From a virus: a stretch of DNA of 64,000 nucleotides. The notes under the pieces are model-generated. The model saw only the letters and a program-made list of their open reading frames with translations, was not told where the DNA came from and ran no database searches. Every line of letters begins with the position of its first letter. Positions within the stretch are counted from its first letter, which is position 1. The stretch covers positions 89,701 to 153,700 of IMG/VR virus record IMGVR_UViG_3300025450_000015. One strand, written 5' to 3'. Below, one piece after another: positions 6,001 through 34,885 of the stretch. The translations under genes were made by a program, and so were the position numbers.

Positions 6001-9000
6001 TGTAACTTGGTACTCAAGTGTAGCAAATAACGGTACATACTTACCATTAGCACAAAACTGGGGAATCTCATACGGAGAAGGACAGTTCTTTGCAACAGCA
6101 ACAGGACCAACTCCTACAATGACAGCTACTACTTCAAGTGGTAACTTGATTACATTAAGCAGTACAGCCGGTTTGAACGTAGGAAATACTATTGTTCCAA
6201 CAGCAGTGACTGAAACTACAGTGGCTAGTCAGACAATTAATGCAACAGCAATTGGATTGTCAACATCGTTTATTTCTAACGGTATTGCAGGCAACGCAGG
6301 TACAACATTAACTGCACCAGTTGGTTTAGGTCCGTTTGCACTAGGTATGTATTTGACTGGTTCAAATGTGACATCAGGAACTTACATTACTGGTAGCAAT
6401 ACATTTAATTCAACATCGTCAACGATTGCAGGATCTATATTGACCATTGGCGGTACAGTTACTGGTACTGGTACAACCAGTGCTTATAGTGTACAACCTG
6501 GAATGGCATTAACTGGCGCACAATTTAACACTACAAGTTCATACATTTGGAACACGTACTATCCAAGTGGTGTACAAACTGGTGTATTTGTACCAGCAGG
6601 TACAACTACTGGTGTAATTACAACAGGTAGTCAGTTGAGCGGTACAAATATAACTACTGGTGCTACTTATATTGTTTCAAATCCAACTACTTCAGGTAGC
6701 ACAATTACTGGAACAGCATCTCCAAGCACAGTAGTTACATTCAACGGTAGTGTTTCTATAGTTAACGGACAAGGTATTTTAACTGTGTCTTCAACACCAA
6801 GCGGTGTTGGTATTCAACCAGGTTATATTCTAAGTGGTACAGGTGTTACAGCTGGCACAACTATTGTTGCACCATACGGTTCATCAACAACTCCAACTAG
6901 CTCAACCGGTCAGTGGATTGTCAGCGTAGCAACAGTAGTTAGTTCAACTGCATTGACAGGCACACCATATGTACTTACAACAACTGGTACTATCAACAAT
7001 AATACATTAATACCAGGTATGGTATTGGCTAGTACAGGCGGTACTGGTACAATTACCGCTGGTACATATATTACTGGACAAATCAGTACTACAAGTAGTG
7101 CGGTAGGTACAGGTACAGGAGTAAGCGGAACAATTGGTACTACTACACTAGTAATATCTGGTTCATCGACTGGATTCGCTGTAGGACAATTAATTACTGG
7201 CGGTAGTTTGTTCTATAACACTTATGTAGTTGCTGTTTCAGTTGCAACCAACACAACAATTACATTAAGTCAGCCATTATATGCAACAATCGGTGGCGGA
7301 ACATACAACGGTTATATTCCTGGTACTGCTGGACAATACTTTATTAGCACTACTAGTTTAGTAACCAGTGTTACTGTAACCGGTAATGCATGGGTAGCTA
7401 ACACTGGCTCATTAGTTCCATCTACAACAATAACAGGCGGATTGACTGCTTATATTGCATATCAAAATACAAGCTCTGCAAGTGCAGTAGCAAGTCCAAG
7501 TTGGGCATCTGGTGGTACTATTGGTGCAAGTTCTTTTGTTGTTAATACTGGAACAGGTATCGTAGCAGGCCAATTAATTATTGGTACAGGCATCCCATCA
7601 GGAACAGTAGTAGCAAGTTCATATGTTCCTGGTAGTACAACAGTTCCATTAGCCGTGGGAGTCGCAGGAGGCGCGGCGGCAACTATTGCTGGGTCAAATG
7701 CTACTGGTACTTATAACTTCTATACAGCAGGCGGAACTGGTACATACACATTGAATACTAGTGCATTAACTATTTCAAGTGCTCAGACAATTGGCGGACA
7801 AAGCTGGACAATTACTCCAAGTCAAACAGCGGCAGCTGGTGCAATCACTGGTACACAAAATACAATTACAGTTGGAAACACAGCCGGTATGTCAGTGGGC
7901 GAACCAATAGTGTTTACGAGTAATATTGTTAGCACAACATTGACTACAACAGCCGCTACTGGTAACTTGTTAACAGTTGGTACAACTGTTGGTATGGCGG
8001 TAGGTGCTCCAGTCGTGTTTACAGCAGTGACCCAAACTGGTAATATTACTTCTACATCTAGTACTGGTAACACAATTACATTGAACTCAACTACTGGTTT
8101 AGTACAAGGTGAAACTATTGTGTTCACAGCAGTTAGTCAAACAACTACATTAACTGCTACAACTAACGGATCATTTACATTATCAAGTTCTAGTATTACT
8201 AACAGTATATTAACTGTTGGTACTTTGAGTGCAGGTACAATCACTCCAGGAGCTGTTATTTCAGGTGGTAGTATTCCTGCTGGAACATATATTATATCAA
8301 ATATATCTGGTAGTGGTAACGGTAGTACTTGGAACGTAAGTACAAGTTCAGGATTTACACAAACTAGTACAAGTATTACAGGTACATTAAACATTATCAC
8401 TGTTAACTCTAACAGCGGTATGTTAATTGGTGAAACATTTACAGTTGCTACTAACGTAGGTAACTTGATTTCAGGTAACACATATTATATTACTAAAACT
8501 ATTAGTACTAACCAGCTTGCTGTAGGTACTGTGTATGGTGCCACAAGTGATTTGACTTTAGTAACAACTACTGGTCAAAGTGTTAGCGTAACAGCTGGTG
8601 CGACATTAGGCGGCGGTAATTTAACAGCTAGTACTACATTCTATATCACTAGTGTAGCAGGCAGTAATATTACAATTAGTACAGTATACAATGGTTCATC
8701 GGTAACTATTGCTAACGGTACAGGTGTATGGACATTTGTAGCAGGTGCCGCTTTTGGTAGTATTACAAGCGGTACAACATACTACGTTACAAGCATTCCA
8801 ACTCCGGGTGTAAACGGTACAATCACTGTAAGTACAACTTATGGCGGTTCTAACTTAACTGTAACAAACGGAAATGGATCATGGTCAGTAACTGAAGGTG
8901 CAACATTTGGTGGATTAACATCCGGCTCGACATATTTCATTACTGAAATTGTTGGAAGTACACTAATATCAGTAAGTACAATTTATGGTGGAACCAATGC

Positions 9001-10897
9001 GGTAGTTACTAACGCTGGCGGATCTTGGACTGCACAAGCAGGTTCATTATTTGGTAACTTGATTTCAGGTAATACATACTATATTGCTAGTATTGCAGGC
9101 AATCAGATTACTGTAAGTGCAAGTAGTACTTTATCTCCAGTAATTACATTAGTTAATGACACAGGTGCATGGACAAGTACAATTGGTACAAACATCGCGG
9201 CAACAAGTTGGGACGGTATCAACTGGACACAGCAAACATTGCCAACATACGCAAGTTGGATCACTCCATCATTTGGTAATCCATTAGTTACAACAACTGG
9301 TTACACACCACTATGGGTAACCGCAAGTAACCAATCTGGTACAGTAGCGGCAAGTATTCATACCGGTGCAACACCGTTGGCACGTACAAAAGTAGCTAGT
9401 GGTGCTTTAACTGAAATACGTATGATTGAACCAGGCAGTGGATTTGCTAAAGGTGTTGTTACTGGAACTACGTATGTTGCTGGTACAACAGTTACCGTAA
9501 CAGCCGTATCTGGAAATTCAATTACAATCGGTGCAACCAATTTAACAATTGGCCAACCAATTACATTTGCTACTGGGTTTGGTAACGTAGTTGCAAACAC
9601 AACTTATTATGTACAAGTAACAAGTTCAGGTACAACACTAACTATCAGTTCAACTTATTATGGTAGTCCATTTAATGCAGGTACTGCAAGTAGCATATCA
9701 GTAGCTGGTACAGTTGGACCATTGAATTTAATTACTGTAGATCAAACAGAAAACATGTATAATCTACAACCAATTGAATTCAATACTGTAAGCTCTGGCG
9801 GATTAAGCACACAAACAACTTACTATGTAATTGGATCAACAATTCAATCTACTACATTCCAAGTTGCAACTTCATCTGCATTGGCAACAATTGGTACTAG
9901 TGTTACATTAACAACAAGTACTCCAACTGGTATGCAATATACAACAGGACCAACATTAACTATTACCGATCCTAACCAAGTTAACAAAGCACCAACTCGT
10001 GTACGTACAGGTGATGGTGTGTTAGGTAACCCAAGTTTCCCATGTCGTGGTGCTGGAAATGCAACAGCAACAGCAAGTATTACTGGCGATGGATATGCTG
10101 ATATCTACCAGAATACAGCATTTATTAACGTTGCTAATTTATATGCATTACCTGCCGCAGGTGCTAACGTACAGTTCAGCAGTATTTCTAACGCATGGTA
10201 CAAACTAGTTGCTACAAGTAATCAATTAGGACAAGCAGGTAACTATACTGCTACATTCCAAGTAAGTCCAAGTCTAACAACTTATCTTGCTCCACCGAAC
10301 GGTGCATTGATTACTACAAGATTGAAATACAGTCAAACACGTTTAACTGGACATGACTTCTTGTATGTTGGCTCAGGTAACCAAACACAAACTAACTATC
10401 CAAACGTTACTGATGCAAATGCAATTCAGGCTAACCAAACATATCCAAATATTGGTGGTCGCGTATTCTTTACATCAACTGACCAAGACGGTAACTTTAA
10501 CGTTGGTAACTTGTTTGGAGTTCAACAAGCGACTGGTACAGCTACATTGAATGCCAACGCATTTAACTTAGCTGGATTACAGAGTTTGACACTAGGTTCA
10601 GTAAGTTTAGGTGTAAATAGTGCAACGATTACGCAATTTAGTACAGATCCGTACTTTACTGCTAATAGTGACAATATTTTACCAACACAAAAAGCTATTA
10701 AATCTTACATCACAGCCCAAATTGGTGGCGGATCAAGTAGTTTGAACGTAAATACACTAACGGCAGGACAGATATACATAGCTGGTAATACTATTAGTAA
10801 CCTAAATGGTAATCAAATTTATGTTAGCAGTAAGATGCTGTTCACAGGCGGAATTGACGGTGCTCCTGTAGCTACCGTATTCTTCTTATCAAGATAA
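2..10897 (+). CDS. Giant repetitive fibre/structural protein, 5' end outside window
   Basis: The reading frame is open from base 2, so the gene starts upstream; more than 3,600 residues are visible. It is dominated by Gly/Ser/Thr/Ala-rich beta modules built around phrases such as VGQPVxFTG and TYYV, typical of fibre and structural proteins of aquatic T4-like phages. A non-repetitive core near 3.4-3.9 kb (YARSTFVQNC, SELGGRIRATNGNSSYG) resembles a beta-helical fibre domain of cyanophages. Sialidase/BNR-like repeats (S-x-DG-x-TW, TYGNGxFVAV) lie at about 4.68-6.1 kb and again near 9.2 kb. The C-terminal 300 residues (FTSTDQDGNFNVG, LPTQKAIKSYI) match a common fibre terminus. It is probably a virion surface protein; whether tail fibre or other appendage is not decided. 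Long minus-strand frames inside it are by-products of its codon bias. Confidence 0.75.
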   Translation, partial: SASYVSGGVVSGQATGLPAGDVGSTTVVNQINTSVSLINDMIYNGLPKTPAITIPQLTGYNTSYLVGFGYGITQIQNNYLFIKAEIAAYLNTYYSSVWTTFGGTNQTETLRDIGFVLDGLQYDMTYGCNNQSIINGSSYYSLQIPQILASYNAATVGALQRLQAIISQIVTGTSVTATSGNSVTQSTGGSAGSAAAASFAAGRVGDVIYWLQNATSNATTLTLVGSVSGTTLTVTSGTGNGIYIGSMLTGTGVVAGTYIVNQLTSSASATAATTLASGGSAGTNTFVVSSATGIAAGQLITGTNLPAGSYVSSSYISGTSITVVNAFGAPQNFTSTGGTGAYLFYPANGAGTYTLSTSGNTGTTFTALSTFTPVTSGAYALVTNQYLQTAYNNLIARQTEIASDAQVWVQKYYQAYPISQSLTQRDAGYIALALAWDVLFGTNFNSIACGRAFNRLNASALALVANTNQELNATTGAITFIGFKAKQIASAGSTVQAQTLIDDIVTKINGQVAFNTVGSAILAGTQTIAYGTADVITVTTSGGTATFSVSLTPATTGQTITYITAGGLATFSSAQTLVKGTSVTLAAAAGGMSAGTYYVTTGVNNSFTVSLSSSYANAVAGTPGSFTGGTVTGAVGVVTIGTYYNTIASVTVTSGGNWNNTSLYSAAQATTTTSSGQGLTLSLGFVSSSYSTTVAGVQTSSNIVTLGSTAGMPTNMPITFSGLPALGSVTATATTTTSNLITVATTTGLSVGQQVYFTGTVFGNIVPSQLYYIASIPTPGTNGTITVSLTFGGGNVALISATGTMTMAFNNAGGLWNNTTYWINSLQSAATLSTLAITSTTGVFSCATSSVTLTVGQPVVITGTFSAGSITGYTSGATYYIIGNPTSTAFQLSATLGGSAVTSTTSGGTITGITVTVPAATLTLTNSFKSGTAYTITNTVTGMSATTTAGATVTWPYLNNPMINGSLTYNDNVLTIQGTEILRANIPFLAAEASAYTVASYGGTVSSITSGSVVNTSGAHNLLVNDPVVFTGTVGSSNIVAGTTYYVLTVPSSTTFTISATQYGTGTQTTFTLATGSLGSLTVGYYYNYAKCVRDTTNFINALIYDINYTGNWKSMRAAELYVNAVAGSTTQNFYLVRNACGIRNQTMNGLTGVLSTANAYGTRRPTAGAYASLDPGFGPNDQNAWVYARSTFVQNCTMFGYACVGAKVDGALHAGGYKSMVANDYTCVIGDGIGWWTTGTGSLSELVSVFNYYSYAGYMSELGGRIRATNGNSSYGTYGVVAEGVDTFETPIYGTVNNRSYGPQVTNVVTDSTTQILRLEYENAGTNYTNAIPTISGSGYNILSFADEFRDAGVFESRLIDLNNGLGVGGSSYVSSVNVGQGGAVGYITIAAADVALTGSYNGMKVQITAGTGVGQYASILTYTNGSKIAQIIRTTFATLTVTSSSTTALTVASTATLYVGMPIYLSTTATNMNLTAYQVYYVQAISSTTQFTLALTSGGSAITGLTATSGQTVSLYAAGWDHVVPGTPIVNTLDLTTAYIIEPYVSFTGPGYAATARTLPATAIWSSITYGAGNYVAIANGSTSTAISTNGKTWTPGGALTASAFTNVVYGGGQSAAATVTLGGFGGSGAQLTAVIGTGTSLGQVVGVNVINGGYNYNTAPSLLFTGGGGTGAQGTAVVLNGVIQSVIITVNGSGYTSAPTVTVVTSAITAITPITWGKNYFNSGNVSVTISAPFSGTVWSGSSSATSGSYYYYYSGATQATNYYLATSSGTFSSTAPTFTTGTGSAGTYGVSLTFVGTAATATPTLTDYGVSSYTITNIGYGYTATPTITILDTSAKFVAISTTTTATAYSTVANLGSSWTSGNALPSAGFNSLTYGNGIYVAVGYTGTTSNASAIITSSPDGVTWTGRTAPSGATQAFTSVAFGWTGPGSSATTTGMFVAIATNSTSTAYSTNGLTWTTGGALPSVANWSSVTYGNGRFVAVAAGSNIVAYSNNGGVTWYSSVANNGTYLPLAQNWGISYGEGQFFATATGPTPTMTATTSSGNLITLSSTAGLNVGNTIVPTAVTETTVASQTINATAIGLSTSFISNGIAGNAGTTLTAPVGLGPFALGMYLTGSNVTSGTYITGSNTFNSTSSTIAGSILTIGGTVTGTGTTSAYSVQPGMALTGAQFNTTSSYIWNTYYPSGVQTGVFVPAGTTTGVITTGSQLSGTNITTGATYIVSNPTTSGSTITGTASPSTVVTFNGSVSIVNGQGILTVSSTPSGVGIQPGYILSGTGVTAGTTIVAPYGSSTTPTSSTGQWIVSVATVVSSTALTGTPYVLTTTGTINNNTLIPGMVLASTGGTGTITAGTYITGQISTTSSAVGTGTGVSGTIGTTTLVISGSSTGFAVGQLITGGSLFYNTYVVAVSVATNTTITLSQPLYATIGGGTYNGYIPGTAGQYFISTTSLVTSVTVTGNAWVANTGSLVPSTTITGGLTAYIAYQNTSSASAVASPSWASGGTIGASSFVVNTGTGIVAGQLIIGTGIPSGTVVASSYVPGSTTVPLAVGVAGGAAATIAGSNATGTYNFYTAGGTGTYTLNTSALTISSAQTIGGQSWTITPSQTAAAGAITGTQNTITVGNTAGMSVGEPIVFTSNIVSTTLTTTAATGNLLTVGTTVGMAVGAPVVFTAVTQTGNITSTSSTGNTITLNSTTGLVQGETIVFTAVSQTTTLTATTNGSFTLSSSSITNSILTVGTLSAGTITPGAVISGGSIPAGTYIISNISGSGNGSTWNVSTSSGFTQTSTSITGTLNIITVNSNSGMLIGETFTVATNVGNLISGNTYYITKTISTNQLAVGTVYGATSDLTLVTTTGQSVSVTAGATLGGGNLTASTTFYITSVAGSNITISTVYNGSSVTIANGTGVWTFVAGAAFGSITSGTTYYVTSIPTPGVNGTITVSTTYGGSNLTVTNGNGSWSVTEGATFGGLTSGSTYFITEIVGSTLISVSTIYGGTNAVVTNAGGSWTAQAGSLFGNLISGNTYYIASIAGNQITVSASSTLSPVITLVNDTGAWTSTIGTNIAATSWDGINWTQQTLPTYASWITPSFGNPLVTTTGYTPLWVTASNQSGTVAASIHTGATPLARTKVASGALTEIRMIEPGSGFAKGVVTGTTYVAGTTVTVTAVSGNSITIGATNLTIGQPITFATGFGNVVANTTYYVQVTSSGTTLTISSTYYGSPFNAGTASSISVAGTVGPLNLITVDQTENMYNLQPIEFNTVSSGGLSTQTTYYVIGSTIQSTTFQVATSSALATIGTSVTLTTSTPTGMQYTTGPTLTITDPNQVNKAPTRVRTGDGVLGNPSFPCRGAGNATATASITGDGYADIYQNTAFINVANLYALPAAGANVQFSSISNAWYKLVATSNQLGQAGNYTATFQVSPSLTTYLAPPNGALITTRLKYSQTRLTGHDFLYVGSGNQTQTNYPNVTDANAIQANQTYPNIGGRVFFTSTDQDGNFNVGNLFGVQQATGTATLNANAFNLAGLQSLTLGSVSLGVNSATITQFSTDPYFTANSDNILPTQKAIKSYITAQIGGGSSSLNVNTLTAGQIYIAGNTISNLNGNQIYVSSKMLFTGGIDGAPVATVFFLSR

Positions 10898-10917: not shown

Positions 10918-11256
10918 ATGGCAGGATCAGGAAATAAAGCAACGACACAATTGAACGCAGGTACACAGTCTACTTATTCGTTAATCTATACAGTACCAAC
11001 CGGTTACTACGGTGTTTATAACATTTCATTTACAAACACTACAGCTTCTGCGGCAACTATTAGATTATATATAGGTGCAAGTACTGCGGCATCTCAGGTT
11101 GCCAGTGAAGCATATGAATACTTAACAACAGTAGTTGGTTATGGTGTGTTTGAACGTACAGGAATTGTAATGGCAGCTGGTGCAAACATTGTTGCTAGCT
11201 CAAGCGTTGCTGGTGTAAACGTTAACGTTTACGGAATTGAAACATCGACATCATAA
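10918..11256 (+). CDS. Small virion surface protein, unknown
   Basis: The product is 112 aa, beginning 20 nt after the giant protein and preceded by a good Shine-Dalgarno (ACGGAG). It is rich in Thr/Ala/Ser/Val with regular beta-strand spacing and has no charged core, signal peptide or membrane segment. The composition and position between two fibre genes suggest a small beta-sandwich virion component, perhaps a fibre or capsid decoration protein. No catalytic motif is visible and no specific family is recognised. Confidence 0.55.
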   Translation: MAGSGNKATTQLNAGTQSTYSLIYTVPTGYYGVYNISFTNTTASAATIRLYIGASTAASQVASEAYEYLTTVVGYGVFERTGIVMAAGANIVASSSVAGVNVNVYGIETSTS

Positions 11257-11278: not shown

Positions 11279-13249
11279 ATGGCACGTTATAATACATCGC
11301 TGGCAACAGAAATTGTTTCCGGAGCACAAACTCTGTTAACACCTGCACAAGGTGGTTACACAGAATTTCAAGGATCTGCACCGTACACGGTGGTTATCCC
11401 AGGACCAACATTATTTTTAGGACAGTCGCAAAGTTATTTTAACAACACTAGTGGTGTTGTTACACTTTCTGCTCCTAGCGGATATATTGCTGGTAGTCCT
11501 AGTTCTCCGGTGTTTAACGGACCAGGTGGTTCTAGTACAAACTTATTGGCCATGCCAGCAGGATCTAGTTGTATTATTGGATCTGATGGTACTAACTATA
11601 GTATAATTACATTCCCAGGCGGTAATCAATTTGGTATTAACGGAACTTTTTCAGCTGATTTGATTAGTACCAATACTGGTACCACCAATATCTACAATAC
11701 AAATACTCAGACAGTTAACTTTGCAGGCGCGGCAACTAGTATCAATATTGGTTCTAGCACTGGTACAACTACTATTAACAATCAATTGTTAGTAAAAGGC
11801 GGAACAGTTGTTCTTAACTCTAGTTCAGTACGTACAGAAGATAAAAATATTGAAATTGGATATGTTAATCCAGTTACTTATGGTGGCGGTACTGTTACAA
11901 CTATCGGTGGTGCGTTAGGCGGTAGTACAACATTTACAAGTATTACTGGTACAAAAGTAACTGGTGCAGGTACATACAGTGGTGTTGGACAATTTGCTAC
12001 AAGTGGTAGCGGATCGGGTGCAACTTTTAACATCACTACAACTGGGTCAGGTACAACTTATACTGGTGTAACTACAATTACATTGGTTAATCCAGGAAGT
12101 AACTATGCAATCAATGATACAATTACTATTGGTGGTAACTTACTTGGTGGTACTAATAGTCCTAACAACTTAACATTCACTGTAAGCAACGTTAACTACA
12201 GTCCTTGGATTGCAACTATTACCGGTATGCCCAACACTACCAACTTGGTAAACGGTCAAGCTGTTAGTGCAACTAACGGTACAGGTAGTTTAGGCGGCGG
12301 CGGTACAAGTTATGTAATAAGCAACATTGTAAGTGGAACTAGTATTCAGGTAACAGTAACAGGCGGCACAACTCCTGTAGCTGGTACAATTACAGCTATT
12401 ACTCCAGGTAGTGCTGATACATTTGCCAACGGCGGCGGCATATTATTATATGGAACTAGTAATCACACATTACAATGGGCAAGCAGTACATTAGGTCCAA
12501 CAAGCGGTGGCGGTAACCCAGCTTGGGTTAGTTCAGAAGGGTTGTATATCAATACTTCTAATACATTTGGTATTCAAAGTGGTAGCAACGTTAACTTTAA
12601 CTTATTGACCAACGGTCAAGCTACTGGTACTGTTAACATTGCAACCAACGCTGGTACAGGTAACTTGTTTACTGGAGCAAGTTCAGCAGTTAACATTGGT
12701 GCTAGCGGTGGTACTGCTACAATCAGCAACACTAACTTTACAGTTGGACAGTCTGGTGGTACAGTTACTTTTAACGGTATTACAACTTTCACAATGAATA
12801 GCGTAACAGCGTTTAACTTAACTGGCGGCGGTACAATGAATGCTGGTAGTACATATGGTTATTTTAGTTCGCTAGGCGTTGGTACTAACACTAACGGTGG
12901 TGGTGGTACAATTTATGCGGCAAACAACATTGTTGCTTACTACTCAGATGACAGATTAAAGACACGTTTGGGCAAAATTGAAGATGCTCTTGCTAAGTTA
13001 GAAACATTAAATGGTTTTTACTTTGAAGCTAACCAAACTGCTCAGGATTTGGGATATACTGTTCAACGTGAAGTTGGAGTTTCTGCTCAAGAAGTTAATG
13101 CAATCCTGCCAGAAATTATCAAACCAGCTCCAATCGACGCTAAGTACATGACAGTTCAGTACGAAAAGTTATTACCATTAGTGATTGAAGCAGTTAAGGA
13201 ATTGTCAAGCCAAGTTAAAGAATTAAAAGCACAGATTAACAAGGAATAA
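11279..13249 (+). CDS. Tail fibre with C-terminal S74 intramolecular chaperone
   Basis: The product is 656 aa. The first 550 residues are low-complexity beta-rich fibre repeats with many Asn-Ile-Gly and Thr-Gly turns. The last 100 residues are a recognisable peptidase S74 / endosialidase-type intramolecular chaperone: YYSDDRLK at 554-561, then GVSAQEVNAILPE, and a terminal coiled coil (EAVKELSSQVKELKAQINKE). In this family the chaperone drives trimer folding and then cuts itself off between Ser and Asp of the SD motif, here S556-D557. The mature fibre would therefore end just before the chaperone. The Cys-Asn protein gene starts 3 nt after this stop, so the two are probably translated together. 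Confidence 0.85.
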   Translation: MARYNTSLATEIVSGAQTLLTPAQGGYTEFQGSAPYTVVIPGPTLFLGQSQSYFNNTSGVVTLSAPSGYIAGSPSSPVFNGPGGSSTNLLAMPAGSSCIIGSDGTNYSIITFPGGNQFGINGTFSADLISTNTGTTNIYNTNTQTVNFAGAATSINIGSSTGTTTINNQLLVKGGTVVLNSSSVRTEDKNIEIGYVNPVTYGGGTVTTIGGALGGSTTFTSITGTKVTGAGTYSGVGQFATSGSGSGATFNITTTGSGTTYTGVTTITLVNPGSNYAINDTITIGGNLLGGTNSPNNLTFTVSNVNYSPWIATITGMPNTTNLVNGQAVSATNGTGSLGGGGTSYVISNIVSGTSIQVTVTGGTTPVAGTITAITPGSADTFANGGGILLYGTSNHTLQWASSTLGPTSGGGNPAWVSSEGLYINTSNTFGIQSGSNVNFNLLTNGQATGTVNIATNAGTGNLFTGASSAVNIGASGGTATISNTNFTVGQSGGTVTFNGITTFTMNSVTAFNLTGGGTMNAGSTYGYFSSLGVGTNTNGGGGTIYAANNIVAYYSDDRLKTRLGKIEDALAKLETLNGFYFEANQTAQDLGYTVQREVGVSAQEVNAILPEIIKPAPIDAKYMTVQYEKLLPLVIEAVKELSSQVKELKAQINKE

Positions 13250-13252: not shown

Positions 13253-13654
13253 ATGACAACTCCTTCAAGTCCTATTTATATTAGTCAAATTGACGGCGAA
13301 ATTGGACTGCCTAACAGCAGTCCATACAGCAATTTGAGTAATCTTAATGGATATGTAATTCCAGGACAACGTGATAGTTACCCAACTATGAACGAAATGC
13401 GTAACAGAGCATACTATCGTTCAAATAACAAGGGTAATTGCAACAACGGAAATTGTCCAAATAATTGTAATTGTGGTAACATTTGCTGTACAAACTGTTA
13501 TAATTGTAATAACATCAATTGCACAAATTGCGATGGTCAAAACTGGTTACAAAACAACTGTAATTGCAACTGCACTTACAACTGTAACATTAATACCAAC
13601 GTATATTATAACTGTAATTGTAACTGTAATTGTAACTGTAACTGTAACTGCTAA
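13253..13654 (+). CDS. Cys-Asn repeat fibre-type protein, candidate radical SAM substrate
   Basis: The product is 133 aa. Residues 1-60 resemble a short phage structural module (ISQIDGEIGLP, MNEMRNRAYY), similar in style to baseplate or fibre end modules. Residues 63-133 contain 21 cysteines and about 30 asparagines and end in seven Cys alternating with Asn. There is no signal peptide. The Shine-Dalgarno (AAGGAATAA) lies in the end of the fibre gene, and the radical SAM/SPASM gene follows 18 nt downstream. Inference: this is a virion protein whose Cys-rich tail is modified by the neighbouring enzyme, as in thioether-forming RiPP systems. Alternatives are a metal-binding or disulfide-crosslinked tail. 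The overlapping +1 frame over the same stretch is a repeat artefact. Confidence 0.75.
   Translation: MTTPSSPIYISQIDGEIGLPNSSPYSNLSNLNGYVIPGQRDSYPTMNEMRNRAYYRSNNKGNCNNGNCPNNCNCGNICCTNCYNCNNINCTNCDGQNWLQNNCNCNCTYNCNINTNVYYNCNCNCNCNCNCNC
13613..13651 (+). repeat. Hexanucleotide microsatellite TGTAAY
   Basis: Six tandem TGTAAT/TGTAAC units plus a final TGC encode the alternating Cys-Asn tail. Slippage would add or remove two residues at a time and keep the frame. Confidence 0.9.
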
Positions 13655-13672
13655 TATACCACAAGGAATCTT

Positions 13673-15139
13673 ATGATTTTTGAAATACTGACAGAAAAGT
13701 TTGGATCAAACCCACCTGATCTAAGAACGTTCTTCTATGACAACGAAAAAAATGTCTTAAGCGATGAAACAGGATTCGTCTATGAGTATCCCGATGCTTA
13801 TGCAAATAATTTTGAAAATCGAGTACCATACAAACCATTTGATAAAGATCGTCCTTTAATTAAATCTCGCAGTACTAATCACGTAAAAATTCAACTAGGA
13901 TTAAGTTGTAATTATAGTTGTGATTATTGCAGTCAAAAATTTGTGGAACGCCCACGTGAAACTAATGCTAAAGACATTGAAAATTTTATGGAAATGTTTA
14001 AGACTTTAGAGTTTAACGAAGAAGACGGTTTACGAGTTGAATTTTGGGGAGGTGAACCTTTAGTTTACTGGAAGACATTAAAACCCCTGGCCGAAGCAGT
14101 AGCAGAATTTTTTAAAGATTGGAGAAAGAAACCAGTTTTTAGTATTATTACTAATGGTAGTATTTTAACAGAAGAAATCTGTGCTTGGCTATACAGTATG
14201 GAATTCCATGTAGCTATCAGTCATGACGGGCCAGGACAACATGTACGCGGACCAGATCCATTTGCAGATCCTAAGAAACGTGAAATTATTTTAGATTTAT
14301 ACCAGATTTTGCGTCCTTTAAATCGCATCAGTTTTAACTCAATGTTAAACAGACAAAATCTTAGTCGTAAAGCTATATTTGATTATTTTATTAATTTTAC
14401 AAATGATCCCAATGTTAGTTTAGGTGAAGGTACCTTTGTAGATGCATATGATGCCGATGGCCTACAACACAGTTTACAAACTAAACAAGATCATTTCGAA
14501 TTTAGAAAAATCGCGTTCGGAGAAATTTACGGATCTAACGGTGAAATCGGCTTTGGCAACATATTACAAAAAGTTGATAATTTCACAGAATCAGTATTGA
14601 CCCATCAGCAAGCAGACTATTTAGGTCAAAAATGCGGCATGGATGACGAAAGAACCGTTGCATTTGATTTAAACGGCAATGTAATTACTTGCCAAAATGT
14701 CAGTGCTATCGAAATTAACAAAAACGGAGAACCTCACTTAGGTGGTAAGATTACTGAGATCGAGGACGTAAAAATTACTACTAGTACACACTGGAGTAAT
14801 CGTGCAGAATGTCCAAGTTGTCCAGTGTTGCATATTTGTAAAGGTGCATGTATGTTCCTTTCAGATGAATTCTGGACTACAAGTTGCAATAACGCCTATA
14901 GCGATAACGTACCATTGTTTGCCGCAAGTATTGAAAAAATAACAGGTGGTTATGTTCCTTACCATATTAAGGGCAAAGGATTACCATTAGAGCGCCAAGA
15001 TATCTGGGGCGGTGTATTCAAACACGAAGAAGAAAAGAAAAAAATAATACCTATTAAGATTGTCAGTGAAAAAGTTGCTGTAATCGACAATGTCGAAGTT
15101 TACGGTAAGAGTTCCTTGATAAATACTGAACAGGAATAA
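13673..15139 (+). CDS. Radical SAM/SPASM maturase-like enzyme
   Basis: The product is 488 aa. The radical SAM cluster motif CX3CX2C is at C79, C83 and C86 (CNYSCDYC), followed by a GGEP motif at 126-129, the SAM-binding signature. A complete SPASM domain follows: C321-X13-G335-X4-C340, then C380-X2-C383-X5-C389-X3-C393 and C405, enough ligands for two auxiliary 4Fe-4S clusters. SPASM enzymes mostly modify ribosomal peptides or proteins, for example forming thioether or C-C crosslinks. About 70 residues precede the first cluster motif, and a Lys-rich tail of about 60 residues ends the protein. Start: ATG with AAGGA 7 nt upstream. The gene directly follows the Cys-Asn protein, its most likely substrate. 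The reaction itself cannot be read from sequence. Confidence 0.9.
   Translation: MIFEILTEKFGSNPPDLRTFFYDNEKNVLSDETGFVYEYPDAYANNFENRVPYKPFDKDRPLIKSRSTNHVKIQLGLSCNYSCDYCSQKFVERPRETNAKDIENFMEMFKTLEFNEEDGLRVEFWGGEPLVYWKTLKPLAEAVAEFFKDWRKKPVFSIITNGSILTEEICAWLYSMEFHVAISHDGPGQHVRGPDPFADPKKREIILDLYQILRPLNRISFNSMLNRQNLSRKAIFDYFINFTNDPNVSLGEGTFVDAYDADGLQHSLQTKQDHFEFRKIAFGEIYGSNGEIGFGNILQKVDNFTESVLTHQQADYLGQKCGMDDERTVAFDLNGNVITCQNVSAIEINKNGEPHLGGKITEIEDVKITTSTHWSNRAECPSCPVLHICKGACMFLSDEFWTTSCNNAYSDNVPLFAASIEKITGGYVPYHIKGKGLPLERQDIWGGVFKHEEEKKKIIPIKIVSEKVAVIDNVEVYGKSSLINTEQE
15119..15125 (+). promoter_or_regulatory. Late promoter candidate, ATAAATA
   Basis: TGATAAATAC matches the T4 late consensus TATAAATA. 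It lies in the last codons of the radical SAM gene, 27 nt before the Ig-like protein ATG, which has its own Shine-Dalgarno. It would let the Ig-like and halogenase-like genes be transcribed late and separately. Confidence 0.5.
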
Positions 15140-15152: not shown

Positions 15153-16148
15153 ATGAATTTAACTCAAAATTTAATACAGTTTCAACATTCGCAGTTGATA
15201 GCACTAGATATAAAATTTACTGACACTGGATTTCAGTGGACAGTATTTGATGCCTATAAAAAATCAGAATTGCAGTTGGAATGGGCTAGTTTAGCAGATA
15301 ATACCGTTACTGCTAGAAAAGTAGCCGGAGTTAGATATCCAAGCCCTGCTGACGAATTTGCATGGGAAACAGAAACACATAGAGTTTATAGTCAAACTTC
15401 AGGAGTCTATCCTGGTGTAACAGCAGGAATTTCTGGAGAAATAAATTGGACAGATATTACCAACAATGAGGGATTTTCAGATCATGCTATTTTTGCAATC
15501 ACTCACCCAGCTGACCAAGTTACTGTAAGAAATTTAAATGTAAGATACGTTCAACAAACTGCTTTGAATACAAGAACAGGTATCCCATTATACAATTTAG
15601 TAGCCAATTCACAACTACATAAGAAAAATCCAGTTAGGGCAATGTCTTTGCAAAAGAATAGTCCTATGATTTTAATTTCTATTCCGTTTGCAGAAATGAA
15701 TCCATCAGATTGGAACATGATGGTTGCGTTGGGCGATAGCGATCCTGGCCTAGTAAGAATATCGTCAGGCGAACAATTCACAAATGTAATCACCGACGAG
15801 CTTGGCAGAATCGTATATACTATGCCAAAAGTTTATTTTACAAATAAGACTGCTACTGTCAGCCCAGACGGCTATGTCGATTTACCGTTTTACTTAGGAA
15901 CTCCTACCGATTTAAATCCCCCAGCAAAAACAAGCTCTGAGCATGGATTGCCTATAACGGATCACAATGCAACTATATATTTAAAAACTACGGCAGGTCA
16001 CTTGAATAAACAACAAGTACAAACAGTCAACGGTGTAGGAACTGTTCGTTTAATTGCAACACATCTTGTTCCAGGTGACACTATCACAGTAAGTTGTGGT
16101 TTTCAATATTGGTCAGGATCAGACGACTGCGTTATAACCGTACAATAA
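15153..16148 (+). CDS. Unknown protein with C-terminal Ig-like domain
   Basis: The product is 331 aa, lying between the radical SAM and halogenase-like genes with its own Shine-Dalgarno (AAGGAATAG) and a TGATAAATAC late promoter 27 nt before the ATG. No enzyme motif is seen. The last 65 residues (from ITDHNATIYLKTTAGHLNKQ to ITVQ) look like an Ig-like/invasin-type beta-sandwich, common on phage virion proteins. The body has several Trp/Tyr-rich strands. It could be a structural protein or a second substrate of the modification enzymes on either side. I do not recognise a family for residues 1-230. Confidence 0.6.
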   Translation: MNLTQNLIQFQHSQLIALDIKFTDTGFQWTVFDAYKKSELQLEWASLADNTVTARKVAGVRYPSPADEFAWETETHRVYSQTSGVYPGVTAGISGEINWTDITNNEGFSDHAIFAITHPADQVTVRNLNVRYVQQTALNTRTGIPLYNLVANSQLHKKNPVRAMSLQKNSPMILISIPFAEMNPSDWNMMVALGDSDPGLVRISSGEQFTNVITDELGRIVYTMPKVYFTNKTATVSPDGYVDLPFYLGTPTDLNPPAKTSSEHGLPITDHNATIYLKTTAGHLNKQQVQTVNGVGTVRLIATHLVPGDTITVSCGFQYWSGSDDCVITVQ

Positions 16149-16155: not shown

Positions 16156-17358
16156 ATGAAAATAGGCATTATAGGTAGTGGTACCGCCAGCGCCGTTTCA
16201 TTACTTGCAATTTTTGATAAATTTAAATTCCATAGATGCAAACACATAGATGTGTATTGCATATACAATCCTGACATTCCTGTAACTACTGTGGGCGAAA
16301 GTACTAGCCCTATAATGCCTAGTTTACTTTATCATGCTATTGATTTTTCTGTTACTGAAGAATTAAAAGAGTTCGATGGTACCCTTCGCTGGGGTACTCG
16401 TTACTACTGGGAAGATATTAATGATAAAAATTTCCTAGTAAGGCATGGACATACAGGATTGCATGTCAACAGTGAAAAATTTAGCGGATTTGTTATCAAC
16501 AAACTTGATAAATTATACGATAATTTTTTTCAAATACACGGTAATGTCTCAGACATAACACAAGATCATACTCACGTATCGATATTAGTCGACGGAGTGC
16601 AACATAAATTTGACTATATCATCGATTGTAGAGGATCACCGTCGGCCGAAGAAATGGATAGTGGACTATACGAATTTCCAAAATTTGAAACAGTTAACTC
16701 AGTAATACTATTTCCTGACTTTAAAGAGTATAACGAAGATTTAACAAGTGCATATCCACATGACGACGGCTGGATGTTTGGAGTACCATTAACTCATCGT
16801 AAAGCCTTTGGTTATCTATATAATAAAAATATAACAACTCAGGAAGAAGCGATTGAAAAATTTTCTAAATTAAAAAATATTGATGCTAGTAAATTAAGAA
16901 AATTTAGCTGGAGACAGTATTATAAAAAAGAAGCAATGAATGGACGCATATTATCCATGGGTAACAGACTATATTTTCTTGAACCTGCACAAGCATTGCC
17001 GTTACATTTTTATATAAATTTGTCTGTAGAGTTTATTGAAACATTAATTAAAGGTACTAATTTACAAACACCGCATTTTAATAGAGGAATTAATACTTCT
17101 TATCTTAAAAGTATGGAAGATATGTTGAATTTAGTTGCACTAAACTATGTAGGTCCTTGCAAAAAAGATACGCCTTTCTGGAATACAGTCACAGCACTGG
17201 CTAAAGAACGTTTACAAACATCGGAAAGATTTCAAAAATATGTAAGATTGTGTCAGCAGACTGGAGAATACGAGCAGTATTGGGCACACAATTCAGCCTT
17301 GATGAAAGAATATATCGAAGGCTTTGATATTAAACTAGATCAACTAAGTCAAATATAG
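16156..17358 (+). CDS. Flavin-dependent halogenase-like protein with altered active site
   Basis: The product is 400 aa. The N-terminal FAD fold is clear: GIIGSGTAS at 4-12, VGEST at 46-50, and IDCRG at 156-160. GWMFGVP (205-211) takes the place of the GWxWxIP halogenase motif, and FLEPAQAL (274-281) that of the conserved FLEP region. The family includes tryptophan halogenases and the phage enzyme VirX1 of cyanophage Syn10. By hand alignment with PrnA, catalytic Lys79 becomes R78 (GTLRWGTRYYW) and Glu346 becomes Q279, so classical chlorination is doubtful. It may be an unusual halogenase or a related FAD monooxygenase. The gene is 7 nt after the Ig-like gene with an AAGG Shine-Dalgarno, and its end overlaps the convergent Nudix gene by 29 nt. 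Confidence 0.75.
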   Translation: MKIGIIGSGTASAVSLLAIFDKFKFHRCKHIDVYCIYNPDIPVTTVGESTSPIMPSLLYHAIDFSVTEELKEFDGTLRWGTRYYWEDINDKNFLVRHGHTGLHVNSEKFSGFVINKLDKLYDNFFQIHGNVSDITQDHTHVSILVDGVQHKFDYIIDCRGSPSAEEMDSGLYEFPKFETVNSVILFPDFKEYNEDLTSAYPHDDGWMFGVPLTHRKAFGYLYNKNITTQEEAIEKFSKLKNIDASKLRKFSWRQYYKKEAMNGRILSMGNRLYFLEPAQALPLHFYINLSVEFIETLIKGTNLQTPHFNRGINTSYLKSMEDMLNLVALNYVGPCKKDTPFWNTVTALAKERLQTSERFQKYVRLCQQTGEYEQYWAHNSALMKEYIEGFDIKLDQLSQI

Positions 17359-17779
17359 TTTGTAATTTGGTACGAATAGTTTTACTGTTAAAACTATTAC
17401 GTAGTCCTTGATGTAAGGGTTTAGGTGTGCGATCTACAGTAGTCCAAGCCCAACCAATGTGTTCGTCACTCAAGACAGGAACAAACTCGTTATCTATTAC
17501 ACACAAATAAGTATGAAAATTAAATACTTTATCGTTACTGACAAATGTTTCTAATGGGATTGTTTTAATTATTTTAGGCACTGCACCTATTTCTTCTTTA
17601 ATTTCGCGTTGAAGACCTTGCCAAGGTGTTTCACCTATGATGTTTGTCCCGCCGACTAATCCCCACGTGCCTTCGTGTTTACCGTGACTTTTTTGAAGTA
17701 ATAAAAATCGTTGTGTAGATTTAGCATAAAATAATGCACCACTACAAACTATTCTATCTTTTACAATATTATTTTCCAT
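17330..17779 (-). CDS. Nudix hydrolase
   Basis: The product is 149 aa with a complete Nudix box GX5EX7REUXEEXGU: GTNIIGE then REIKEEIGAV at about 43-66. Nudix enzymes hydrolyse nucleoside diphosphates linked to another group, such as oxidised dNTPs, NADH, ADP-ribose or capped RNA; the substrate here is not readable. The N-terminal strand (CSGALFYAKSTQRFLLLQ) and GTWGLVGG match MutT/NudE-like proteins. The start overlaps the end of the gp15 gene by 19 nt on the same strand, so it is the last gene of the gp14-gp15-Nudix transcript. Its 3' end overlaps the convergent halogenase-like gene. Confidence 0.88.
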   Translation of the reverse strand: MENNIVKDRIVCSGALFYAKSTQRFLLLQKSHGKHEGTWGLVGGTNIIGETPWQGLQREIKEEIGAVPKIIKTIPLETFVSNDKVFNFHTYLCVIDNEFVPVLSDEHIGWAWTTVDRTPKPLHQGLRNSFNSKTIRTKLQTIFDLVDLV

Positions 17780-19224
17780 TGGCCCACACCATATTCACCT
17801 TCAAAGCTCTTGACCCATGCAACCCCGTTCCACAAGTACTGAACTCCAGTGTATATATTCGTTTGCCATACCATAGTGTCTGATTCTAGAGCGGCATGAA
17901 AAATAACTTGCCATACTGAACCAGTATATTCTATAATGTCATTAGCATTAGCTACTAAACTGCCCCATACGACAGCAGGATTTGTATTAGTCGTGTTGCC
18001 TATATCTTCAATAATTAGATAACGTGTACCTGCTATTGGGTTGTTAGGTGTATAAGTTTGAGGATTAATAATGGCATCAAAAGTACCAGGGCTGTTTGGT
18101 CGATAACTAGTAGCGGCATTGTAATCTTTTACATCTGTACTTAAAAATCCGTTACTATCAATTCCAGTATTGCTAGTCAATGTATCTGTATTATAATTAA
18201 TTTGTAAAATTGCAGGATTTGTAGGATTAATAGCAATAGTACCTATAACGTAAGTCCCATTTGGTTGCAACAAATACAACATACTAGAACCTGCAACATA
18301 TTTTCCGGGGAATAAATTGAATACACTTTCCCAACTTTGAGGATTACTGATCGGAGTAGGAATAGTCAACGTCGGTTCTGGAGGATTAACACCTCCTCCT
18401 GATTCTAACAAAGTTGCCTGGCCGTCGTATACTGCTATAGGAAATCCTGTAACTGTAACATTTTCAGTAGCAAGCAAATTGCTAAATGACGGACTAGTGC
18501 CATCAGATTGTAGTGCAGGATCTATTCCTAATCCTTCAACATACCCAGACGGATAAGTTCCTTCGGACCCATAGACACTTGTAATAATTTTTGTAATAAC
18601 ACCAAGATGTTTGACCTTAACTGGAGGACTAATCCAGATAGGAGAATCTAAACTTAATGTTGCTATATCAATAGGAGTATCATTGCCGACAGGAACTTGT
18701 CTACTATCCCAAACGATATCTCCTAAATTAAGAACTGATAAACTAGTCCAGTCAATATAGTTGTCTGTGGTTTGCAATTCTAAACTAGGGTTGAATAACA
18801 CTAGTATTTGTTCTAATATTTGTAATTTTTGATCAGTACTGCTAGTCCAAATATCGCATTTCATCTTTAATTGAAAAGGAGTAGGCATCAAGCGTTCAAC
18901 TGTATAATTACGTCCTTGATTTCCGGTATAATTATTTCCGTTAATATCTCTTTCGCGAAAATGCAACTTGCCTACATAAGTTTGATCAGCTAACCTATTT
19001 CTATCTAGTTCTAAACCAGTTACATACACACTTATACGTGGAATACTATTAACAGCATTTTCACTGTTTTGACGTATGATGCTGGCCACTTGACGATCTG
19101 CATCGCCGTACATTACGGGTACTTGATGTAGTGTTCCATCTCCATATTTGACCACAAAATTACTGAGCACTCGTATAGTTTGTGTCAAATATCTTCTTAC
19201 TTGTCCGTCATAAAACCACTGCAT
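17761..19224 (-). CDS. 15: Tail sheath stabiliser / completion protein, gp15-like
   Basis: The product is 487 aa, against 272 aa in T4. The first 220 residues follow T4 gp15: FYDGQVRRYL at 4-13, VPVMYGDADRQ, an RISVYVTGLELD strand, then MPTPFQLKMKCDIWT and LQILEQILVLFNPSL, matching the T4 order NPSPIKMIYEL...QIVEQILPYFQP. T4 gp15 caps the sheath at the head-proximal end and joins it to the neck. The extra C-terminal 260 residues are Asn/Thr/Pro-rich with short repeats (VWQVIFHAALE, YLWNGVAWVKS) like fibre and sheath insertions. The start ATG overlaps the gp14 stop (TAATG), indicating coupling. The gene is on the minus strand, opposite gp13. Confidence 0.82.
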   Translation of the reverse strand: MQWFYDGQVRRYLTQTIRVLSNFVVKYGDGTLHQVPVMYGDADRQVASIIRQNSENAVNSIPRISVYVTGLELDRNRLADQTYVGKLHFRERDINGNNYTGNQGRNYTVERLMPTPFQLKMKCDIWTSSTDQKLQILEQILVLFNPSLELQTTDNYIDWTSLSVLNLGDIVWDSRQVPVGNDTPIDIATLSLDSPIWISPPVKVKHLGVITKIITSVYGSEGTYPSGYVEGLGIDPALQSDGTSPSFSNLLATENVTVTGFPIAVYDGQATLLESGGGVNPPEPTLTIPTPISNPQSWESVFNLFPGKYVAGSSMLYLLQPNGTYVIGTIAINPTNPAILQINYNTDTLTSNTGIDSNGFLSTDVKDYNAATSYRPNSPGTFDAIINPQTYTPNNPIAGTRYLIIEDIGNTTNTNPAVVWGSLVANANDIIEYTGSVWQVIFHAALESDTMVWQTNIYTGVQYLWNGVAWVKSFEGEYGVGQWKIIL

Positions 19225-20727: not shown

Positions 20728-21513
20728 ATGGACGATTTGCCATCAAGTACGCAAAGCAATTCTACTCAAGAGCGAAATAAAGTGTTTGATTATATCAAAA
20801 CTATGCTGGGTGACGGCATGATTGATGTAGAGCTAGATAATAAACATCTAGAAATTGCGTTAGATCGTGCATTAAACCGCTATCGTCAACGTAGTCCAAA
20901 TGCTGTAGAAGAAAGCTATTTGTTTTTAGAACTAATACAGGATCAAAATGAATACAGATTACCTGACGAAGTTATTACGGTACGTCAGGTATTTCGTCGT
21001 GCTATCGGTTCCCGTACCGGTATTGGTGCTGGCGGCACATTATTTGAACCATTTAATTTGGCCTATACAAATACCTATTTAATGTCAGGTAGTATGATGG
21101 GCGGTCTAGCAACTTATGATGCGTTTGCTGGATATCAAAAGTTAGTAGGTCGTATGTTCGGTAGCTATATTGAATTTTTATGGAAACCAACTACGCATAT
21201 TTTAAATATTTTACAACGTCCTTTTGCCCAGGGTGAACAGATTCTTGTTCAAAGTTATAACTATCGTCCTGATTGGGTTTTACTACAGGATGTCTATGCT
21301 AAACAATGGTTAAAAGATTATGCACTTGCCACCGCCAAAGGTATGCTAGGGGAAGCTCGTAGCAAATTTGGTAGCATTGCAGGTCCTGGAAGTCCTATTA
21401 CTTTAAATGGAACCGCTTTGCTAACTGATTCAAAAGCTGAATTAGAAAAATTAGACAAAGAGATTGAGAATCTAATTTCTGGCGGAACGGGCTATTACTT
21501 TATAACTGGTTAA
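20728..21513 (+). CDS. 13: Neck protein, gp13-like
   Basis: The product is 261 aa (T4 gp13 is 309 aa). It begins with a helical region (VFDYIKTMLGDGMIDVELDN, HLEIALDRALNRYRQRSPNA), then LELIQDQNEYRLPDEVITVRQ, typical of head-tail connector proteins of the gp13/adaptor type. The C-terminal half has a Tyr/Trp-rich segment (YNYRPDWVLLQDVYAKQWLK) followed by helices. It joins the portal to gp14 at the neck. Start: ATG with AGAGGA upstream and a CTAAATA late element 18 nt before it. It is plus strand while gp14 and gp15 are minus, unlike the collinear 13-14-15 order of T4. Confidence 0.82.
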   Translation: MDDLPSSTQSNSTQERNKVFDYIKTMLGDGMIDVELDNKHLEIALDRALNRYRQRSPNAVEESYLFLELIQDQNEYRLPDEVITVRQVFRRAIGSRTGIGAGGTLFEPFNLAYTNTYLMSGSMMGGLATYDAFAGYQKLVGRMFGSYIEFLWKPTTHILNILQRPFAQGEQILVQSYNYRPDWVLLQDVYAKQWLKDYALATAKGMLGEARSKFGSIAGPGSPITLNGTALLTDSKAELEKLDKEIENLISGGTGYYFITG

Positions 21514-26729: not shown

Positions 26730-27725
26730 ATGAGCTTTACATCTAACCGTAATTTACAAGCAAGTAACCATCTTTTTTTTAAAGATTGGCGCCACGCCTA
26801 TAACACCTTTGTAACTGATCAATTCAGATTAGCGCCTAAAAGTAAATTTTTATTCCATGTTGCATTTGGCATCGATAATTCTACAGTTTATAATTTAAAT
26901 TTAGTACAGCGTTACGGAAAAGAAATTAACTTGATGGTTAAAAGTGTTGATTTACCCCATTTCACAGTCAAGACTGACATGGCAAATCAATACAACAGAA
27001 AGAAAAATATTCAGTTCATACATGAACCCATGGAACTTGGAATAAAATTTCATGATGATAATATGGGACTGATTAATGCCCTGTGGCAAAATTATTACAA
27101 CTATTATTATGCTGATCCAACTAGTGCAACTATACCCGGAGCATACAATAGAACTGCCACTAAAAACGCAAATTATATTCCGACAGCATACGGATTAGAC
27201 AACGGTAGTACAGTTCCTTTTTTTAAGTACATTAAGATTTATCAAATGGCTAGACACGAATATGTACAATATACCCTAGCTAATCCTATTATCACTAGTT
27301 GGAATCATAATAAATTAGATTACAGTCAGCCAGGTACGCATGATTTTGATATGAAAATCAAATATGAAGCTGTAAGTTATAGTGTAGGAGCAGTATCCGA
27401 AGATAGCCCCGAAGGATTCGGAGAAGGGCATTATGATCACAGTCCGAGTTCTTTAAAAGGTATCAATCCAGATCCTAGTGTGCCAAATCCCAGTTTTGTA
27501 GAATCTTTAAATGTTAAGGGCAATGCGGCAAGTTTCCTTGACAGTGTGATTACACAGATTAATTCCTATCAAAACACACAACAACCAATTAATTCGAATG
27601 GTACTATGGGAATTATTGATTCAACTTCCAATAATAATGCAGGTGGGTTGAGTGGTTACAACTTTCCACAAAGTAACGATAACGATAACACAACCCAAGC
27701 TACCCAACAAAAACCAGGAGGATAA
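26730..27725 (+). CDS. Tail-tube-fold baseplate protein, gp48/gp54-like
   Basis: The product is 331 aa. Residues 38-150 show a tube-type fold: SKFLFHVAFGI, MVKSVDLPHFTVKTDMANQY, NRKKNIQFIHEPMELGIKF, then HDDNMGLINALWQNYYNYYY. This is the pattern of T4 gp54 (tube initiator) and gp48 (tube cap), which nucleate the tail tube on the baseplate. Which of the two it equals cannot be told. The C-terminal 90 residues are Asn/Ser/Gln-rich and probably flexible. The ATG lies 5 nt after ATAAATA without a Shine-Dalgarno. Confidence 0.65.
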   Translation: MSFTSNRNLQASNHLFFKDWRHAYNTFVTDQFRLAPKSKFLFHVAFGIDNSTVYNLNLVQRYGKEINLMVKSVDLPHFTVKTDMANQYNRKKNIQFIHEPMELGIKFHDDNMGLINALWQNYYNYYYADPTSATIPGAYNRTATKNANYIPTAYGLDNGSTVPFFKYIKIYQMARHEYVQYTLANPIITSWNHNKLDYSQPGTHDFDMKIKYEAVSYSVGAVSEDSPEGFGEGHYDHSPSSLKGINPDPSVPNPSFVESLNVKGNAASFLDSVITQINSYQNTQQPINSNGTMGIIDSTSNNNAGGLSGYNFPQSNDNDNTTQATQQKPGG

Positions 27726-27728
27726 TAT

Positions 27729-28094: not shown

Positions 28095-28095
28095 T

Positions 28096-28524: not shown

Positions 28525-28526
28525 GC

Positions 28527-34884: not shown

Positions 34885-34885
34885 C

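Follow-up and report, generated by a model that had tools for sequence, protein, structure and literature searches.

Whether a tailed phage could apply radical peptide chemistry to its own fibres is the question raised by two adjacent genes in the window analysed here, a 64,000-nucleotide (nt) stretch covering bases 89,701-153,700 of the 153,700-base IMG/VR virus record IMGVR_UViG_3300025450_000015. One gene encodes a small protein that ends in a run of alternating asparagine and cysteine, hereafter the tag, and the other a radical S-adenosylmethionine (SAM) enzyme with a SPASM domain; T4-type genes flank the pair. We argue that the two belong to a phage fibre-tip maturation module, a reading to which, taken as a whole, we give a probability of roughly 0.6. 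The association of enzyme and tag is strongly supported and reaches far beyond the window locus, and to judge from the sequence comparisons described below, the enzyme very probably acts on the tag.

The tag protein and its enzyme

The two genes and their main elements are the following.

13253-13654, + strand: tag protein, 133 residues, putative substrate of the SPASM enzyme (from its sequence, its IMG/VR homologues and purifying selection)
13439-13651, + strand: Cys/Asn tail of the tag protein, residues 63-133
13610-13651, + strand: (NC)x7, the last 14 residues of the tag protein, in mixed synonymous codons
13673-15139, + strand: radical SAM/SPASM enzyme, 488 residues, PHROG 1802 family
13907-13930, + strand: CX3CX2C radical SAM cluster motif, C79/C83/C86
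14633-14887, + strand: seven-Cys SPASM region, C321-C405

An earlier note, made from this DNA alone, had described a protein with a Cys-rich tail, followed by an enzyme with CX3CX2C and a complete SPASM cysteine set and preceded by an S74-chaperoned tail fibre, and these elements are all borne out: the 21 cysteines of the protein lie without exception within its last 71 residues, the enzyme open reading frame (ORF) begins after a gap of 18 nt, all ten enzyme cysteines are present, and the preceding fibre, which ends 3 nt 5′ of the tag-protein ORF, matches PF13884 above its cut-off. The same note had read the N-terminus of the tag protein as phage structural, which finds no support, as this head has no Pfam, PHROG or NCBIfam match at E 0.1 and a head profile run against 18,242 other ORFs from the collected loci returned nothing convincing (best E 0.031). 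Homologues of the window tag protein are present in IMG/VR. Compared with its counterpart in L008 (L numbers denote collected loci), it shows 0.87 differences per synonymous site, a saturated value, versus 0.11 per non-synonymous site, and the proteins of L012 and L013 give a ratio of non-synonymous to synonymous substitution (dN/dS) of 0.06; on these rates, the tag protein is judged to be under purifying selection.

Pairing seen from the enzyme and from the tag

The enzyme-based sample comprised 166 loci from IMG/VR, GTDB contigs and the Achromobacter phage JWF, picked by enzyme similarity and not by the tag. Thirteen loci without an enzyme ORF of more than 250 residues were dropped, leaving 153 loci in 103 clusters at 90% identity, represented by 51 viral loci, 51 bacterial contigs and JWF; since only the best-scoring relatives were taken (the best 80 of 531 in one search and the best 80 of 84 in another), further members exist beyond these nearest ones. 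In 80 of the 103 representatives, the same-strand interval of -4.5/+3 kb around the enzyme contains a strict CxCxC motif, as against one on the opposite strand (L114) and none elsewhere on the same strand. Counted per ORF of at least 60 residues, the motif occurs in 82 of 1691 same-strand ORFs starting within 4.5 kb, in 0 of 738 farther away and in 1 of 2251 on the opposite strand. A looser count of Asn-Cys-rich partners gives 87 of 103, to which L128, with the strict motif only, adds one, and with 88 of 103 enzymes having a same-strand tag partner the pairing that the earlier note had proposed to look for across phage genomes is indeed conserved.

Among the viral representatives, 49 of 51 have a partner, both misses lying at contig ends, and the gap between tag gene and enzyme is at most 66 nt in 46 of the 49 and 718-1466 nt in the remaining three; the regular separation of the two genes that the same note had named as counter-evidence is not what is seen. 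The partner lies upstream in 19 of these loci and downstream in 30, and a neighbourhood kept despite swapped gene order points to a functional link. On bacterial contigs, the partner (37 of 51) is encoded upstream on the same strand, 15-2894 nt off, with space for at most about three genes. Seven of the 15 representatives without a partner end at a contig edge (L028, L048, L099, L132, L134, L139, L174).

The reverse search, made in IMG/VR solely with the 24 bases encoding NCNCNCNC, listed at least 119 stretches and covered 80 loci. The run lies within an ORF, here called an (NC)4 ORF, in 66 of these loci, and the other 14 have no ORF of 40 residues containing it. With an enzyme called at a profile score of at least 40 bits, 51 of the 66 are accompanied by a same-strand SPASM-type enzyme, in 13 the sequence breaks off less than 3.5 kb downstream, and two have no enzyme (L302, L314); grouped at 80% identity, the tag proteins form 39 distinct kinds, of which 30 are linked, seven cut and two without enzyme. 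The run ends no more than 11 residues from the C-terminus in 50 of the 51 linked cases, six of which are contigs already known through the enzyme (L260, L266, L271, L279, L293, L311).

An origin of the tag as a simple DNA repeat was considered and is rejected for the linked loci, because synonymous codons are mixed in 51 of 52 linked repeats (the exception is L285) and because of the purifying selection noted above. The enzyme-less L302 and L314 are uniform hexamer DNA repeats, and among the 14 loci without an ORF, six of the repeat stretches are uniform and eight mixed. In the family of Limnohabitans Rim28, 13 of 150 genomes hold an 18-mer for NCNCNC, in the form of uniform hexamers in ten and mixed in three; none of 30 overlapping pattern loci from these genomes, each at most 3 kb long, contained the enzyme, and the 13 genomes gave no enzyme match at 1e-25 with a query that did match in the Nereida ignava family. 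As a separate observation, L255, L261, L296, L304 and L319 encode tiny proteins (about 67-79 residues) in which only a few residues come after a C-terminal HTHxFxDDYxTACNCNCNCNC; downstream, four of the five have a distant radical SAM enzyme, with three matches each in L255 and L296, and L304 is cut.

Architecture of the tag across relatives

Altogether, 182 tag proteins with 141 distinct tails were collected. The residue before a tag Cys is Asn in 1317 of 1774 cases, Ala in 193 and Asp in 99, and Asn stands after Cys in 620; since Asn mostly precedes Cys and less often follows it, the repeat unit is Asn-Cys. The idea, put forward in the earlier note, of a phage system resembling those of ribosomally synthesised and post-translationally modified peptides (RiPPs) stands in part: the pairing of a SPASM enzyme with Cys-Asn fibre-type proteins is conserved, and the Cys-Asn unit is corrected to a modular Asn-Cys dipeptide tag. 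The heads fall into 12 BLAST clusters, five with at least two members; as some single-member heads are truncated, about a dozen head kinds is a soft number. By these sequence comparisons, the tag is modular, carried on about 12 kinds of head and nearly always placed at the C-terminus.

The tag proteins range from about 67 to 616 residues, and with the tag as their C-terminus they do not resemble a short RiPP precursor with a cleaved leader and a released core. On many bacterial contigs, the tag terminates the protein encoded upstream of the enzyme, and at other loci it terminates fibre-type proteins of about 200-600 residues within runs of tail genes. In a PHROG scan of nine tag-bearing proteins, four match tail-fibre families (JWF gp028, L101, L105 and, weakly, L119). 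Furthermore, tag genes follow the central fibre J in JWF and L308, and the upstream fibres of L148 share distal-fibre PHROG matches with the S74 fibre of the window. Such relatives make it likely that the tag protein is part of the virion; for a role in receptor contact, we regard the chances as even.

In seven of the 103 representatives (JWF and six bacterial loci) and in phage 2-1, the Cys-rich run passes directly into a Hint-type start (Cys then FPA[GA]T), Hint being a self-cleaving domain. JWF scores 47.5 bits against Hint model PF05203 (cut-off 32.1), and L101 (29.5 bits) and L160 (16.7 bits) both lie under the cut-off. The Hint-type loci occupy three separate places in the enzyme tree, where L168 adjoins L140, whose tag is plain C-terminal; this is a quick tree, in which L168, L140 and L167 were flagged for odd composition. 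Gene end and self-cleavage look interchangeable as ways of freeing the C-terminus of the tag. The exception to terminal placement is a viral group with about 170 residues after the tag (L034, L050, L064, L090, L260 and relatives). This extension is conserved in its own right (SKIICTKLF...ADQAFG...), and the L023 relative of the group (P0005) has no Pfam or PHROG match at 0.01. Tandem tag proteins stand before one enzyme in L024 (4778-5626), L312 (2048-2634) and L268 (1595-2084).

Enzyme family, predicted fold and known systems

The window enzyme carries the full SPASM set (C321-X13-G-X4-C340, C380-X2-C383-X5-C389-X3-C393, C405), its ten cluster cysteines are invariant across 59 aligned sequences, itself included, and the pattern CX9-15GX4C...CX2CX5CX3C...C is found in 145 of the 153 loci. 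It belongs to the radical SAM (PF04055, 34.8 bits, cut-off 29.5) and SPASM (TIGR04085, 30.6 bits, cut-off 27) families and to PHROG 1802 (phrog_1802, 7.2e-62, residues 58-424). The full-length maturase models listed among its matches all score lower than their cut-offs: the PapB ranthipeptide maturase NF047865, the best full-length NCBIfam model, reaches 74.1 bits (cut-off 340), the QhpD/PeaB quinohemoprotein maturase TIGR03906 69.2 (453), the Cys-rich peptide maturase CcpM TIGR04068 58.9 (500), the anaerobic sulfatase maturase TIGR03942 44.8 over residues 75-393 (349.45) and the SCIFF maturase/CteB TIGR03974 42.8 (425). All 59 aligned enzymes are matched by 14 NCBIfam models, PapB first, and since these include geopeptide, quinohemoprotein, nif11-type, CcpM, cyclophane and sulfatase maturases, their mixed chemistry does not single out a thioether.

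The AlphaFold model of the enzyme has a predicted local distance difference test (pLDDT) score of 91.8. CteB, a thioether-forming enzyme with two auxiliary clusters and an N-terminal recognition domain, is its nearest solved fold by VIA-align (Z 23.1, 3.8 Å over 346 residues), ahead of ChlB (Z 19.8), anSME (18.9), TigE (17.7) and EpeE (12.6); it differs in sharing 15% identity and in its recognition domain, of which the window enzyme is predicted to have at most a partial counterpart. Taken together, family scores and predicted fold suggest an enzyme of the peptide- or protein-modifying type and lean, without proof, towards thioether chemistry.

Two characterised systems offer partial parallels. 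PapB forms bonds between Cys and the beta-carbon of Asp, with direct adjacency of the residues tolerated (PMC9413430); its substrate PapA, the precursor of freyrasin, is a leader peptide with CX3D motifs, whereas the window combines a fibre with Asn-Cys repeats. QhpD introduces several Cys-Asp/Glu thioethers into a structural dehydrogenase subunit rather than a peptide antibiotic, and once cross-linked, this subunit is a substrate of QhpG, a flavoprotein structurally similar to FAD-dependent halogenases (PMC7876137). The window likewise holds a substrate, a SPASM enzyme and, as the second gene downstream of the enzyme, a halogenase-family flavoprotein, a suggestive analogy with the QhpC/QhpD/QhpG cast; QhpC differs in having three Cys-Asp/Glu links and a 28-residue leader, whereas the phage tag is C-terminal with many more cysteines, mostly preceded by Asn. 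Closer at hand are the PHROG 1802 members of Achromobacter phages JWF and 2-1: the window enzyme is 46% identical, the JWF homologue is a listed member of the family, and both phages have an Asn-Cys tag upstream of the enzyme, followed by a Hint-type domain. Their records are annotated just as radical SAM or sulfatase-maturating, with no function or partner assigned. Additionally, pelagimyophages carry radical SAM cassettes in a host-recognition cluster, to which the available part of the source assigns no function (PMC7029224).

Proposed mechanism and alternative explanations

In the proposed fibre-tip maturation module, the protein at 13253-13654 would belong to the tail fibre or its tip, and the Asn-Cys tag at its C-terminus would be what the enzyme modifies. 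The enzyme would dock on the tag region during or after translation, a 5′-deoxyadenosyl radical would form at the CX3CX2C cluster, and hydrogen would be abstracted from residues beside the tag cysteines; two auxiliary clusters would then assist in bonding the sulfur of Cys to carbon. The resulting thioether rings would form a compact rod, and the distal, host-facing tip would be fixed against reduction and proteolysis. In Hint-bearing relatives, self-cleavage would free the equivalent C-terminus. A thioether, favoured by analogy with PapB, QhpD and CteB, is the probable product, and neighbouring Asn or Asp is a tentative choice of acceptor. A bolder version is rather unlikely, though consistent with the data: a tag common to tailed phages and to prophages from several groups of Proteobacteria, borne on unrelated heads, would become a ladder of fused thioether rings, each joining Cys to the preceding residue, which would be a structural element new to virions, and Hint release would leave a reactive C-terminal thioester able to join a virion protein or the host surface.

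Several observations weigh against the module as proposed. Eight representatives lack a partner despite enough flank (L102, L147, L154, L156, L157, L158, L159, L164), among them a Bacteriovorax pair and three Variovorax; L102 has no tag, its fibre end running into other sequence (deletion or mis-assembly), and the enzyme tree has two clades without tags, one of Variovorax together with L159 and one of Bacteriovorax, whose enzymes may use other substrates. Five of the 51 reverse-search links depend on distant enzymes scoring 41-183 bits (L255, L261, L296, L308, L319), and in L255 and L296 the best enzyme match lies 5-7 kb from the tag. Ala-rich tags (CACAC) exist and misfit a strict Cys-Asn cross-link. 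Five of the nine tag-bearing proteins in the PHROG scan have no match, and the window tag protein is assigned to the virion from context and relatives. The maturase scores are so far below their cut-offs that family membership does not disclose the reaction, and Foldseek places anSME, which converts Cys to formylglycine, first (4.1e-12) and thus ahead of CteB. Lastly, a complete RiPP recognition element, whose layout includes three helices, is not evident in the modelled enzyme N-terminus, where three strands (E2-9, E17-23, E28-31) and one short helix (H41-47) are seen.

Some of these points suit a different chemistry on the same substrate, namely conversion of Cys to formylglycine, epimerisation at C-alpha, which would make the stereochemistry alternate, or formation of C-C bonds; we regard such a chemistry as unlikely. 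The Foldseek rank of anSME, with its VIA-align Z and the TIGR03942 score, speaks for the first of these, but formylglycine enzymes recognise a fixed motif around a single Cys, a mismatch with runs of many cysteines. Alternating residues would suit an epimerase, and EpeE is among the fold matches, although it ranks far under the enzymes of thioether formation and sulfatase maturation; ranking by fold is weak evidence in both directions. An improbable alternative is that the tag forms a fibre tip that binds metal or Fe-S clusters or is held by disulfides, the enzyme having another role in the module. Cysteines in regular CxC spacing are typical of metal-binding sites, fibres are often trimeric, and the T4 long-tail-fibre tip, with its iron-binding His-X-His repeats, likewise has ligand-type residues in alternation at its C-terminal end. 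However, T4 uses His instead of Cys and has no dedicated radical enzyme, such a tip would make a SPASM enzyme needless, and the enzyme accompanies 51 of 53 uncut (NC)4 ORFs in the reverse search, both exceptions being the uniform DNA repeats.

Relatives of the enzyme are peptide maturases, and the tag protein of the window is small, with a head unlike known virion families, all of which would fit a RiPP-like peptide with an antibacterial or signalling role, encoded in the tail region as cargo and not part of the virion. We consider this very improbable, as elsewhere the tag caps the larger fibre-type proteins in tail-gene runs, and the neighbour clusters show structural proteins and oxygenases, with no exporter or protease recognised among the 10 proteins annotated. 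Tail-fibre regions do gather many enzymes, of which the hydroxylase and halogenase neighbours may be examples, yet mere chance adjacency in a crowded tail module is hardly credible in the face of the forward and reverse tests, the strand control, the occurrence of both gene orders and the spread over about 12 head kinds.

Distribution

The tag and enzyme system extends beyond aquatic T4-like phages. At 1e-5, the window enzyme matches 13 of 50,697 phage records, with more than 31% identity only in JWF (two records) and 2-1, at 45-46%. JWF is a temperate siphovirus (PMC3899368). Bacterial contigs with the enzyme come mostly from Beta- and Alphaproteobacteria, some being labelled otherwise and several being metagenome-assembled genomes; in the Nereida ignava family, 2 of 149 genomes match at 1e-40, the query genome and one with two partial frames. 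Such a patchy bacterial occurrence, as read from these matches, suits prophages. Xylophilus phage Lumi, whose fibre J is 40% identical to that of JWF, is not among the enzyme matches, and its bases 27,000-42,000 (the rest of the giant tail gene and the following genes) hold no in-frame Asn-Cys tag, so JWF-type phages can lack both.

Neighbouring genes in the window

The gene run around the pair contains the following further features.

122-10897, + strand: fibre-like ORF, 3591 residues, Thr/Ser/Gly-rich, presumably a giant fibre (no PHROG match at 0.001)
10918-11256, + strand: small fibre-type protein of the same gene run (phrog_11338 tail fiber, 2.2e-05)
11279-13249, + strand: S74-chaperoned tail-fibre protein, 656 residues (Pfam PF13884, 34.4 bits, cut-off 22; PHROG tail-fibre/baseplate)
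15153-16148, + strand: accessory protein, 331 residues, C-terminal domain possibly immunoglobulin/invasin-like
16156-17358, + strand: flavin-dependent tryptophan-halogenase-family flavoprotein, 400 residues (PF04820, 110.4 bits, cut-off 21)
17764-19224, - strand: tail sheath stabiliser (gp15) domain (Pfam)
20728-21513: head-tail adaptor

Relatives of the 331-residue accessory protein occur in 22 of the 103 representatives (four viral, 18 bacterial-contig); in its predicted fold, the C-terminus resembles intimin (E 9.2e-5, template modelling score merely 0.2-0.3), which makes an immunoglobulin/invasin-like domain possible. The protein at 16156-17358 is, by its family match, a halogenase-family member for which halogenation is predicted; it is shorter than the matched solved halogenases (about 500-550 residues), including VirX1, and has relatives in 13 of the 103. 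A Trp in the tag region (NCDxQxWLQ) was considered as its substrate and set aside, as Trp, Tyr, Phe and Leu all occur there and Trp is common without a halogenase.

Neighbour clusters of the 2-oxoglutarate oxygenase type are commoner than the halogenase, at 41, 24 and 8 of the 103 loci; in the one member scanned per cluster, the first two are above the Pfam cut-off and the third just below. Since the fibre regions of phages commonly contain oxygenases of this type, we place little weight on them. An aspartyl/asparaginyl beta-hydroxylase-family gene is found in L067 (10508-11296) and 23 other representatives, typically about 5 kb from the enzyme, with PF05118 in the single scanned member of that cluster; Asn is the main residue of the tag. 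The virus record also contains a second radical SAM match (G000:C1:525-986), which lies outside the window and, at 18.5 bits, under the Pfam cut-off.

Implications

Although enzymes of this class are well established, a SPASM maturase dedicated to a portable tag at the C-terminus of phage fibres is, as far as we searched, not described: in agreement with the earlier note, which knew of no phage example, we found no account of a phage fibre as the target of a SPASM enzyme in the open-access literature, preprints not covered. The presence of the system in two isolated phages, JWF and 2-1, makes it directly testable. If the proposal is true, phages would run radical peptide chemistry on their own particles, an added class of virion modification, and many environmental phages would share one tag and enzyme. 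The Asn-Cys tag together with PHROG 1802 would provide a sequence handle for locating the distal tip of unknown fibres. The modification would also be relevant to structure prediction and to recombinant fibres, as the latter would lack it. Finally, these phages would supply many natural substrates for a SPASM enzyme active at the termini of large proteins.

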